From the NCBI RefSeq assembly GCF_018603515.1, contig NZ_JACATN010000002.1, forward strand, positions 620,001 to 684,000: DNA of 64,000 nucleotides. The letters run 5' to 3'. Each line of letters begins with the position of its first letter. Positions within the stretch are counted from its first letter, which is position 1. The notes beneath the pieces are model-generated. The model was not told the DNA's origin. It made no database searches and saw nothing but the letters and a program-made list of their open reading frames with translations. The position numbers were made by a program, and so were the translations under genes. Shown here piece after piece: positions 5,259 through 7,889 of this stretch. Origin of the DNA: Zobellia barbeyronii (GTDB taxonomy: Bacteria; Bacteroidota; Bacteroidia; Flavobacteriales; Flavobacteriaceae).

Positions 5259-6059
5259 TTAGTCTAAAAAGGAAACTACCGCTTCTGAAAATGCCTTAGT
5301 CTTATAGGTTCCGTTGTGGTCTCCTTCCACAATTACAAATTCACTTTTAGGAATAGCTTTATGTAATTTTTCTGGACTACCATTATCTAAATCTTCATTG
5401 CCCGCTATGACCAAAACTTTAGCTTGCACATAAGCTAAGTGGCTTTTTCTTGTATTGGGCTGAAAACGCTGCTGTAGATACAAGCTTCTAAAATCCGCAT
5501 TAATAGATTTGGCATAATCTACCGCCTCCTTGGTCTCTTCAGTTGCTTTTCCATTAAAAGCATTCATAAATTTAATTTTTCGCGGCCACCGGTAATCTGT
5601 AAAATCGATTCCCATGCCACCCAAAACCGCTTTTTTAACACGCTTATCTTTGAGTAATAATTTAGCAAGAACAATACTACCCCTAGAGTAGCCTACCGCC
5701 ATATATTTTTTTAACCGCAAATACTGCATAAGAAACATAATATCCATAACCTCTGCATCAAAACTATATGCTTCTTCCGTTTGTGGCTTCTCAGATTCGC
5801 CATTACCTCTCAAATCAAGAGCCACCACTCTAAAACCTTCTGCTAACAAATCTTCTTTTAGACTTGTATTTTTCCACGATTCCTTAGTGTTTATAAAACC
5901 ATGAATCAATAAAACAGCATCTCCTTTGCCCTCATCAGTGTAGGCTATTTTAGTATCATCAAAAGAATTAAAAAATTCCGTTTGTCCCCATGAGGAGGTA
6001 ATGAACATAAATAATACCGCCACAAAAAAGATATGCATTGCGCTTCTATATATTGACAT
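5259..6059 (-). CDS. Exported alpha/beta hydrolase
   Basis: This 266-residue alpha/beta-hydrolase has a signal peptide (hydrophobic to about residue 22, ending WGQ). The fold markers are LLIHGF (oxyanion hole, residues about 51-55), LDLRGNGES, the nucleophile elbow GYSRGS with Ser125, VIAGNEDLD for the acid and GDHNGTY for the histidine. The substrate cannot be told. The annotated start overlaps the DUF3307 gene by 14 bp; an ATG seven codons later (6038) would remove the overlap and still leave the signal peptide, and is equally plausible. It lies third in the satD-DUF3307 transcription unit, but the functional link is not evident. Confidence 0.85.
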   Translation of the reverse strand: MSIYRSAMHIFFVAVLFMFITSSWGQTEFFNSFDDTKIAYTDEGKGDAVLLIHGFINTKESWKNTSLKEDLLAEGFRVVALDLRGNGESEKPQTEEAYSFDAEVMDIMFLMQYLRLKKYMAVGYSRGSIVLAKLLLKDKRVKKAVLGGMGIDFTDYRWPRKIKFMNAFNGKATEETKEAVDYAKSINADFRSLYLQQRFQPNTRKSHLAYVQAKVLVIAGNEDLDNGSPEKLHKAIPKSEFVIVEGDHNGTYKTKAFSEAVVSFLD

Positions 6060-6744
6060 AGATAATTCCTGTAATTACTGCAAGTCCAAAACTTAACAGC
6101 GTTCCTATTAAGATATATTCGGTAAGTTTCCTGTTATTGCTTTCCTTTAAATCATTAAATCGAAAAACAGATTTTGCTCCGATCAATAAACCGATAGCTT
6201 CCCACCTACCCATAATAATGAACATAAGAACAAACAACCGCTCTATAATTCCTATATATTTTCCGGCATTGGGCAGCGATTTATGGTCCAGTTCTATTTT
6301 GTCCGACATGGCTTCCAATAACTTCCCCATAATAATTGCGGCAGGAGAGCTCACAAATACAATTGCCGTTACCAGAGGCCAATCTAGGTTTTCAAAAAGA
6401 GCTACAGTATGCTCTATTAGATTGCCATAATACACACAAATATATAATACGAGAACATGAAGCACTTGGTCAATAAAAAAGGGAATACTTTTTAGCTTGA
6501 ACAAAGGCGTAGCATATAATTTGGCTAGATCAATAAAATAGTGCGAAACCATAATAATCAATGCTATTTTCCAAAACTTCAAATCCCACACAAGTAGCAT
6601 CGTCAGTGCAAAATGAAGCAAAACATGCGCGTAGAGGTATTTTGATTTTTCTTTATTAGCCTCCTTATGAATGACCCAGCGGTTGGGCTGCAATAAAAAA
6701 TCACCTATTAAATGTGCCAGTAAAAGTTTTGTGAACAGAATCAT
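6046..6744 (-). CDS. DUF3307 multi-pass membrane protein
   Basis: This 232-residue integral membrane protein has about six to seven hydrophobic segments and fits DUF3307. Histidine and aspartate residues lie in or beside the membrane segments: AHLIGDFLLQ at the N-terminus, YAHVLLHFA, MVSHYFIDLAK and FIDQVLHVL. The pattern recalls the YdjM-type membrane metal-dependent hydrolases, but that is only a resemblance. The start codon follows the satD stop at once (no gap), so expression should be coupled to the regulator. A DUF3307 gene beside satD is a known Bacteroidota arrangement; the biochemical role is unknown. Confidence 0.85.
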   Translation of the reverse strand: MILFTKLLLAHLIGDFLLQPNRWVIHKEANKEKSKYLYAHVLLHFALTMLLVWDLKFWKIALIIMVSHYFIDLAKLYATPLFKLKSIPFFIDQVLHVLVLYICVYYGNLIEHTVALFENLDWPLVTAIVFVSSPAAIIMGKLLEAMSDKIELDHKSLPNAGKYIGIIERLFVLMFIIMGRWEAIGLLIGAKSVFRFNDLKESNNRKLTEYILIGTLLSFGLAVITGIIYVNI

Positions 6745-7353
6745 CTAACTTAATTCTTTTAAAGTTTTTGAATAATACTCTAATAATTCTAGAACCAAAT
6801 CTAGACGAGCCCTTTTTTGACGTTGACTAACCGCAGACTGTTGAATATTTAGCCTTTCGGCTATTTCACGTTGCGAAGCATTAGGATTATCTAAAGCCAA
6901 TACAATTATCTCTGCCGATACCGTGCTCCAATCATCCATAAAATGAAGCGCCAACTTAAGCATAAGATTTAAAGTATCATCAAAAAAACCATTGCCCGTA
7001 GCAATCGTTAAATTGAGTTTGTCTTCTTTAAGGGATTCAAAAGTTCTTCCTGATCTATGATAAGCAGGACCGTTAGACTCACTAACACCAACACCCTTAA
7101 ATGTCTCTCCGCCCAAGCCAATGCCCATACGAACATCTAAACCCTTTACCGTTTTTATTAACGCCTTAATATGTATAGCCGCCTGCAAAGCATCTTCCTT
7201 TGCTATTTTTAATTGAAACTCGTCTCCTCTATAAACTTCCCAATCTACGGGTGATTTACCCAGTTTGGATAAGTAATCCTTAAGAATACCTAGCCACTCT
7301 GATGAGTTGTGGTTCTCGGAGTTAATAATATCTCCAGTAATTATTGCTATCAT
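6745..7353 (-). CDS. SatD family protein with nucleotidyl-cyclase-like N-domain and helix-turn-helix
   Basis: This 202-residue protein belongs to the SatD family. The N-terminal part has IITGDI (Asp8) on a predicted first strand, YRGDEFQL at residues 41-48 and RMGIGLGG at 75-82; this order resembles the class III cyclase/GGDEF fold, although the protein is shorter. Residues about 158-186 (NASQREIAERLNIQQSAVSQ) are a winged helix-turn-helix of the kind that binds DNA. It is the first gene of the satD-DUF3307-hydrolase unit, and three palindromes lie directly upstream of its ATG, which suggests autoregulation. The family name comes from a streptococcal sat locus; its function is not settled. 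Cyclase or nucleotide-sensing activity is my inference. Confidence 0.85.
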   Translation of the reverse strand: MIAIITGDIINSENHNSSEWLGILKDYLSKLGKSPVDWEVYRGDEFQLKIAKEDALQAAIHIKALIKTVKGLDVRMGIGLGGETFKGVGVSESNGPAYHRSGRTFESLKEDKLNLTIATGNGFFDDTLNLMLKLALHFMDDWSTVSAEIIVLALDNPNASQREIAERLNIQQSAVSQRQKRARLDLVLELLEYYSKTLKELS

Positions 7354-7357
7354 AATT

Positions 7358-7435
7358 ATATAAGCTAAAACGCTAATATATAAAAATATAAGCTAAAACG
7401 CTAATATATTACATTATAAGCTATATTGCTTATAA
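7358..7435 (-). promoter_or_regulatory. Three phased palindromes upstream of satD (putative operator)
   Basis: Three copies of an imperfect palindrome are spaced exactly 28 bp apart (GC of the AAGC half-site at 7364, 7392 and 7420). Two copies read TATAAGCTAAAACGCTAATA. The third, TATAAGCTATATTGCTTATA, is a perfect inverted repeat with arms TATAAGC/GCTTATA. The array starts 4 bp before the satD ATG and fills the gap to the next gene. Because SatD carries a helix-turn-helix, the simplest reading is an operator to which it binds; this is inferred from position and symmetry. Confidence 0.7.
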
Positions 7436-7436
7436 T

Positions 7437-7889
7437 TCAAAACCACCTTCGGACATTTACACAATACTGTTTGTATCCTTTACCAAAAAGTTTCAAGAGT
7501 GCTATTTCTTCTGGAATGATTTGAAACCGATTCATATATCCAACAAAACCTGCTGCAAGCAAAGTATTGAATGCATTACCAAGCCATACGCCCAAAGCCA
7601 ACAAAAGCACAAGCAAAGCCAGATACATGGGGTTTCTAGAATAGGCGAAAATTCCGTTTTCCACCAACTTACTCGCCTTAGCAGGGTTAGTTGGATCAAT
7701 AGTAGTTCGCAAACGAAGAAATTGAAAAAGAGCAATTGCAGCCACAATACCAGCAAAAGCTAATAAAAAAATGATTAAATAATACCTGCCAAAAAAATCG
7801 AAATAACCAAAAGGCAAAAACGTAGCAAGCAGATACATCAAACCTGCAAAAATCAGAAAAACAACTGCGGGAGGTATCTTTAACTCCAT
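7437..7889 (-). CDS. Isoprenylcysteine carboxyl methyltransferase-like membrane protein
   Basis: The protein reads MELKIPPAVVFLIFAGL from the preferred start at 7889; a longer frame begins at 7943 but its extra 18 residues look untranslated. About 150 residues with four hydrophobic segments. The ICMT/phospholipid methyltransferase signature is present: FAYSRNPMYLALLVLLLALG, and near the end IPEEIALLKLFGKGYKQY, which matches the SAM-binding RxxPE-E...FG..Y pattern (here FQIIPEE). The true acceptor in bacteria is unknown. The gene lies upstream of the satD operator and divergent from rdgB. Confidence 0.82.
   Translation of the reverse strand: MELKIPPAVVFLIFAGLMYLLATFLPFGYFDFFGRYYLIIFLLAFAGIVAAIALFQFLRLRTTIDPTNPAKASKLVENGIFAYSRNPMYLALLVLLLALGVWLGNAFNTLLAAGFVGYMNRFQIIPEEIALLKLFGKGYKQYCVNVRRWF

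Follow-up and report, generated by a model that had tools for sequence, protein, structure and literature searches.

SatD, a predicted cyclase-fold protein with a helix-turn-helix, and its membrane partner behind an operator-like 14-bp array in Zobellia barbeyronii

The satD locus and its gene pair

In the 64,000-nucleotide stretch of the Zobellia barbeyronii genome analysed here (the window; positions 620,001 to 684,000 of contig NZ_JACATN010000002.1, assembly GCF_018603515.1), a gene for a SatD family protein is followed by a gene for a membrane protein with a DUF3307 module and preceded by a regular array of operator-like palindromes. Judged from sequence comparison, this array and its covariation with the SatD recognition helix make SatD very probably the autoregulator of its own operon. 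The satD gene (6745-7353, minus strand) is an open reading frame for 202 residues, and its partner gene (6046-6744, minus strand; 232 residues, 10 predicted helices) starts with its ATG directly after the satD stop, a gap of 0 that confirms the gapless coupling claimed in a preliminary description of this DNA. SatD is 92-97% identical to its nearest named records, all from Zobellia, and scores 35.8 bits against the Pfam family SatD (PF16264), above the curated cut-off of 29. This family takes its name from the sat operon of Streptococcus mutans; relative to it the Zobellia proteins have diverged as a branch of their own, in which YRGD replaces TLGD and the partner bears DUF3307.

Residues 1 to about 120 of SatD are predicted to adopt a nucleotidyl-cyclase or palm fold with D8, S12 and G43-D44, and the three motifs picked out in the preliminary description are present in them: ITGDI at residues 5-9, YRGDEFQL at 41-48 and GIGLGG at 77-82. 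Behind the palm, helices 122-139 and 144-155 lead to a helix-turn-helix (HTH; 161-181), made of helix 161-168 and the recognition helix 172-181 (Q172, S173, A174, Q177), and to a C-terminal helix (184-201). The model has no strand beyond residue 118, so that the HTH is without a wing and the earlier reading as a winged helix has to be given up. In a profile scan, HTH models match inside residues 148-186. PADLOC matches are likewise confined to the HTH region, both in the window's SatD (E 0.012) and in the SatD of pEC34A, where the models hit are CasR, CARF3 and Csa3 with E values of 9e-5 or weaker.

The gene pair was surveyed in 115 satD loci (30 from the window's genome and its relatives, 5 from plasmids, 80 from named genomes), of which 110 are distinct; five repeat loci (L037-L039, L047, L048) were excluded from all counts over 110. 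The searches were centred on genomes of the window's phylum. A membrane gene lies directly downstream of satD in 107 of the distinct loci (112 of 115 with repeats); of the three exceptions, one (L063) does have the partner but overlapping further, and two (L092, L096) returned no match. From the partner's side, 60 DUF3307 regions were drawn from 95 DUF3307 genomes within a 395-genome sample of the phylum, 53 of them without and 7 with a nearby Pfam SatD match, and satD stands directly upstream in 54. The partner also follows satD in 38 of 40 further loci. Counted by lineage, 46 of 47 carry it, the next commonest neighbour family within the flanks examined reaching 9.

An alternating half-site array and the SatD recognition helix

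Upstream of satD, three copies of a 28-bp unit occupy positions 7359-7442, each containing a 20-bp palindrome of 6-8-6 layout. On the minus strand, the first site (7415-7434) reads TATAAG-N8-CTTATA; the second (7387-7406), 28 bp from the first, and the third (7359-7378), which ends 5 nt before the satD ATG, both read TATTAG-N8-CTTATA. At least three palindromes at exact 28-bp steps were found in 50 of the 110 distinct upstream regions (55 of 115 with repeats), against an expectation of 0.05 per 115 from dinucleotide shuffles. Pooled over 112 upstream regions, the autocorrelation has its two highest values at lags 28 (+0.112) and 56 (+0.054), ahead of lag 20 (+0.028), and a palindrome spacer of 8 was observed 201 times where 22.9 were expected (105 regions). 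The gap between neighbouring palindromes is also 8, which places the half-sites at 14 bp each in alternating orientation. Scored out of 24 with a threshold of 22, and with steps of 10 to 21 compared, this alternating lattice reaches at least 22 in 86 of 110 loci, as opposed to 0 or 1 at other steps and 0.2 in shuffles; in a second set it recurs in 22 of 54 further loci, with 0 at other steps. By eye, the upstream sequences of the E. coli, P. fragi and Enterobacter kobei plasmids contain palindromes of TCAACC/GGTTGA type. The preliminary description had spoken of a phased operator. The repeat is real and well beyond chance, while the word 'phased' is loose, since 28 bp corresponds to a non-integer number of helical turns, about 2.67. 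At 10.5 bp per turn a 14-bp step amounts to 1.33 turns, such that each half-site is rotated by about 120 degrees relative to the one before, and a run of six spans eight turns (84 bp).

A scan of the Zobellia genome for the pattern returned four matches with 0-1 mismatch, all at satD, and four further matches with 2 mismatches that are not above the control (9 matches in total). A wider SatD regulon was rejected, the other matches in the genome lying at control level. The motif TAnnTTTG, which we take to be a Bacteroidetes promoter motif, lies at the start of the array or beyond it in 58 of 132 loci, where mononucleotide shuffles would give 18.8. It falls inside the array in 21 of them and downstream in 37, a split that led us to reject a single promoter position throughout. 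With this position varying, SatD may in general be either a repressor or an activator. In Zobellia, repression would be the likelier sign, because the last site ends so close to the start codon.

The spelling of the half-site differs between lineages (TATTAG/TATAAG, TATTAC, TATTCC, TATCGG, TATCGT, TGTTAC and others), and we computed, for each of the 202 SatD columns, the information that it carries about each half-site letter. Of the 131 loci that scored at least 21 on the lattice, 122 entered the covariation set, the nine without a T[AG]T half-site being left out; a GTAACA half-site was re-read on the opposite strand as TGTTAC. Representatives numbered 107 (under 95% identity), 47 and 23, and later 131. 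Among the 107, no column tells more about half-site positions 4, 5 and 6 than residue 177, and none more about position 2 than residue 172. The 131 representatives gave the same leaders, followed by 174 for position 5 and by 145 and 173 for position 6. The pairings behind this result are Q177 with G6 (60 of 107), R177 with C6 (28), K177 with C6 (5) and E177 with G6 (4), other pairings making up the remaining 10; R172 goes with G2 in 4 of 4 cases, all from one Flavobacterium-type group, and Q172 with A2 in 103 of 103. Distant SatD proteins repeat these pairings, R177 with C in L031 (31% identical) and K177 with CC in L028 (42%). G177, for which no rule was written, accompanies TATCGT in 9 of 10 cases among all representatives.

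The rule was then fixed before 40 new loci were fetched. Of these, 24 gave a half-site and 15 had a residue covered by the rule, which called 11 correctly and 4 incorrectly (P=0.005, with a mean of 7.1 correct in shuffles). The held-out SatD proteins all differ from those collected earlier; L248-L250 and L252, more than 90% identical to L023, were not callable. Contrary to the terms set beforehand, L244 (not callable) and L253 (counted as right) come from genomes that already had another SatD locus in the set. In a tree test, no supported independent pair pointed in the wrong direction.

Palm domain and membrane partner

The AlphaFold2 model of SatD, built with 63 sequences, has a predicted local distance difference test score (pLDDT) of 95.5 and a predicted template modelling (TM) score (pTM) of 0.92. 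Its best Foldseek matches in the PDB are mycobacterial adenylyl cyclases, GGDEF proteins, Cas10 complexes and GTP cyclohydrolase III, kinds that account for 47 of the 50 matches listed; the other three are a polyketide-synthase regulator, twice, and one Thg1-like protein. The first-ranked match, a class III cyclase, has a probability of 1.00, an E value of 1.1e-3 and a TMt of 0.48, a fold likeness of moderate score. An hhalign comparison with 13 domains of class III cyclases paired D8 with the first metal aspartate of the cyclases and G43-D44 with their GD, at E values of 1.8e-5 and 1.1e-5 and probabilities of 78 and 82%. The invariant Asn/Arg pair of class III (N123 and R127 of A4) falls in a stretch without SatD counterpart in this alignment, and SatD residue 103 varies between Arg, Glu and Lys. 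Searches by sequence gave no match to Pfam Guanylate_cyc or Pfam GGDEF up to E 1, and no relative in the PDB (best E 0.77). A search of 40 genomes of relatives for GGDEF proteins, meant for a second profile comparison, yielded a single sub-threshold match, which was not used.

Of 193 distinct SatD loci, 192 retain D8 (the other has a gap), all 193 retain D44 and 192 retain S12. G43 is present in 180 and replaced by His in the other 13. At position 42, 162 loci have Arg and 27 have Leu, with Lys also found; at position 45, 126 have Glu and 57 have Ser. Of D8 and the RGDEF letters, whose conservation the preliminary description had made a condition of its cyclase link, the two aspartates stand, and R42, E45 and, less so, G43 vary. 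The predicted structure supports the link to cyclases and GGDEF proteins as one of fold; membership of SatD in the class III cyclases does not stand. With the adenylyl and guanylyl cyclases of class III (PF00211), SatD shares the fold, the motif order and the aligned metal-site Asp and GD, but it lacks the invariant Asn/Arg and has an attached HTH. With GGDEF diguanylate cyclases (PF00990), which match the fold from rank 2 on, it shares RGDEF-like letters and differs in that R42 and E45 are variable; a strict GGDEF enzyme was rejected on these two positions. D8 and D44 would be expected to bind metal, and SatD may bind or even make a nucleotide. Binding of a metal-nucleotide is likely because the palm fold and both metal-site aspartates are kept.

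The partner is composed of an N-terminal DUF3307 module, to which the Pfam match (PF11750, 97.2 bits against a cut-off of 23) is confined at residues 3-109 (H11, D15, Q19, H40, H68, D72, K75, D92, Q93, H96), and an unnamed C-terminal membrane domain at about 152-232 (G165, E168, R169, K191, R195, Y210, G214, S218). Its model has 10 helices (pLDDT 89.6, pTM 0.72). Among 197 partner proteins from a profile search, the most conserved residues sit in the C-terminal domain: E168 in 195, K191 and G165 in 194 each, R169 and G214 in 193 each, R195 in 192 and S218 in 190. The partners of those SatD proteins that match Pfam strongly retain this domain and few DUF3307 residues, which is why DUF3307 was rejected as the partner core; more than a third of these partners are merely 105-115 residues long, and a partner with the C-terminal domain adjoins SatD in 27 of 30 such loci. 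As far as sequence comparison goes, the unnamed membrane domain is the partner's constant part. Three pieces of it that were scanned gave no Pfam or NCBIfam model at cut-off and one weak Pfam match (E 0.02). The whole partner gave no known nucleotide-binding domain in Pfam, no PADLOC match, and no fold match in the PDB (best E 0.64). Among viral models, the best-scoring named entries are phage proteins that consist of DUF3307 alone (best E 0.055). The large phages RsoM2USA, RP12 and SH-Ab 15599 carry the DUF3307 part alone, as stand-alone or short proteins of 119-134 residues where a length is given. In two loci (L150, L153), a gene follows a short C-domain partner, and we presume it to be PAS-type sensor kinase-like.

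Proposed mechanism, alternatives and genomic setting

The reading we favour, with somewhat better than even confidence, is that of a two-gene module in which a palm domain that binds metal-nucleotide switches an autoregulatory array controlling a membrane protein. SatD would act as a one-component regulator, its HTH binding the alternating half-sites before its own gene as a row of cooperating dimers and thereby setting the level of SatD and the membrane protein. The palm most likely binds a metal-nucleotide, and this ligand would alter the grip on the array. The membrane protein would be the output of the module, and its charged residues E168, R169, K191 and R195 suggest a core that handles a substrate, an ion or a lipid. 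A regulator that senses or makes a nucleotide and controls a membrane enzyme had been proposed from the outset. The regulator side of that proposal is strengthened, array and covariation predicting the satD/partner promoter as the target, which fits control of a membrane protein; the nucleotide link stays inferred, and an enzymatic role of the partner is conjectural.

Several observations weigh against this reading. Ten of 110 loci score below 21 on the lattice and 32 of the 54 second-set loci below 22, and the group with strong Pfam SatD scores is without the 14-bp lattice. Its upstream regions instead have a related period of 29 (+0.061 versus -0.001 +/- 0.005 in shuffles). In the held-out test, 9 of the 11 right calls are E177 with G6, and the calls on other pairings succeeded in 2 of 5 cases; the shuffle ignores kinship, position 2 was right in 24 of 24 cases that are all Q with A and so test it little, 16 of 40 loci were not callable, and taken alone these loci rank residue 177 fourth, fourth and fifth for positions 4, 5 and 6. 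Residue 145, outside the recognition helix, comes near 177 for position 6 (0.88 versus 0.97), as expected from shared ancestry. Below 60% identity, residue 177 falls behind 174 for position 5 and ties with 186 for position 4, and below 50% (12 sequences) it is not at the top. The tree test, with 1-3 supported pairs per test, was underpowered and not significant, and some of its pairs have no difference in residue class (2.1 of 3 for G6 versus Q/E177). On the side of the fold, no Foldseek E value is at or below 0.001 and the TM scores are about 0.4-0.5.

The alternative that survives best, possible though on balance unlikely, takes SatD to be catalytically active, either as a nucleotidyl cyclase or as a small cyclic-nucleotide synthase, with a product that holds or triggers the partner, the HTH and its array only keeping dosage. 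Its precedent is Panoptes, which according to the accessible parts of the two reports pairs the mCpol synthase OptS with a membrane effector, OptE, of S-2TM-beta, CARF or SAVED type (PMC12657218, PMC12657230). The likeness lies in a two-gene operon of palm-fold and membrane protein, the SatD fold matching Cas10 too; the differences are the HTH and operator-like array on the SatD side and a partner of 10 helices without a known soluble sensor domain. What decides between this alternative and the regulatory module is whether SatD only senses a nucleotide or also makes one. The superfold common to class III cyclases, GGDEF proteins and Cas10, the near-complete retention of aspartates that a mere sensor could have lost, and the strict pairing with a membrane protein speak for synthesis, as do carriage on plasmids and two loci beside known defence systems. 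Against it stand the missing Asn/Arg segment, the partner's lack of a nucleotide-binding domain in the Pfam scan and the restriction of PADLOC matches to the SatD HTH, in a 2023 library that predates the description of Panoptes; moreover, the neighbours in the Zobellia/Maribacter clade look like housekeeping genes, if the names we assume for them are right. The two defence-adjacent loci came from a PADLOC scan of the neighbours of four plasmid loci, picked by their annotated names, and are a lead, not a statistic. On an Enterobacter kobei plasmid (L216), GajA and GajB lie beside the pair, the Gabija genes ending about 2 kb upstream with an IS3 transposase between, and a DUF4365 protein and a recombinase are encoded downstream. 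On a Sphingomonas insulae plasmid (L036), the pair is flanked by an HTH/ImmA-type gene pair on one side and a Pycsar system on the other, and a ThsB-like TIR gene is close by. The single neighbour scanned in the Vibrio plasmid locus had a weak match (E 2.7e-5), and the one in the Segatella plasmid locus had none.

A bolder form of the regulatory idea is speculative and rather unlikely: a mobile nucleotide-signalling module in which a cyclase-fold protein coats its own promoter through its HTH on a 14-bp lattice, each dimer rotated some 120 degrees from its neighbour, and, through a nucleotide that it makes or senses, restrains a membrane effector with an undescribed core domain; phages that carry DUF3307 alone would interfere with it.

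We regard as improbable a maintenance or defence module resembling toxin-antitoxin systems, in which SatD represses a harmful membrane protein and drifting operators keep copies orthogonal. The pair does behave as a two-gene cassette with changing neighbours, it makes up two of the five annotated genes of a 3,770-bp E. coli plasmid, its operator spelling diverges among lineages, and satD of S. pyogenes is essential in transposon screens though accessory, being present in 178 of 249 genomes, as stated in the accessible part of PMC11323703. Toxicity, however, is only postulated, 31 of 60 relatives have single chromosomal copies, and defence neighbours occur in 2 of 4 plasmid loci chosen by annotated names. 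Very improbable, finally, is that another regulator binds the array and SatD is only a cytoplasmic enzyme: SatD binding is deduced from sequence, but among SatD columns in the main set the recognition-helix residues are the most informative on the half-site, and the pattern stands out nowhere else in the Zobellia genome.

Controller (C) proteins of restriction-modification systems are HTH regulators of their own operon, a role that SatD is here proposed to share; it differs from them by its cyclase-fold domain, its longer arrays and the 14-bp alternating lattice. In the literature, as far as the accessible text of the sources goes, SatD figures as a name in gene tables, an acid-tolerance label or an essentiality hit, without a mechanism. 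In S. suis, satD mRNA is reported to bind the small RNA rss03 in gel retardation assays (available passages of PMC12005413). One paper enters S. suis satD as a DNA-binding protein in a table of small-RNA targets. DUF3307 appears in one paper, as an entry in a phage gene table. A full-text search, with subscription papers and preprints largely outside its scope, found neither PF16264 nor PF11750 and no function in print for SatD or DUF3307, a negative that is no proof of novelty. The present results offer a testable mechanism made up of a fold with both metal aspartates, a DNA target predicted for most of the closer loci studied, a code between amino acids and bases that single swaps can check, and a partner whose constant part is a so far unnamed membrane domain. 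If a nucleotide controls SatD, it would represent a new regulator branch of the cyclase/GGDEF/Cas10 superfold.

As to mobility, no match to the pEC34A pair was found in E. coli genomes, and none to the SatD of the window or of pEC34A in a phage collection; viral contigs contained one relative with query A1 and none with the pEC34A SatD. In the window, an alpha/beta hydrolase gene (5259-6059) shares 14 bp with the end of the DUF3307 gene, and a gene of this family follows the pair in 25 loci from 2 lineages. In several relatives (L017, L022, L024), a gene diverges from satD that we take to be an MscL-like mechanosensitive channel. Eight Bacteroidota genomes (G112, G220, G228, G259, G267, G285, G330, G338) have two SatD matches each, mostly one with a strong and one with a weak Pfam score, and constitute a natural test of operator orthogonality.

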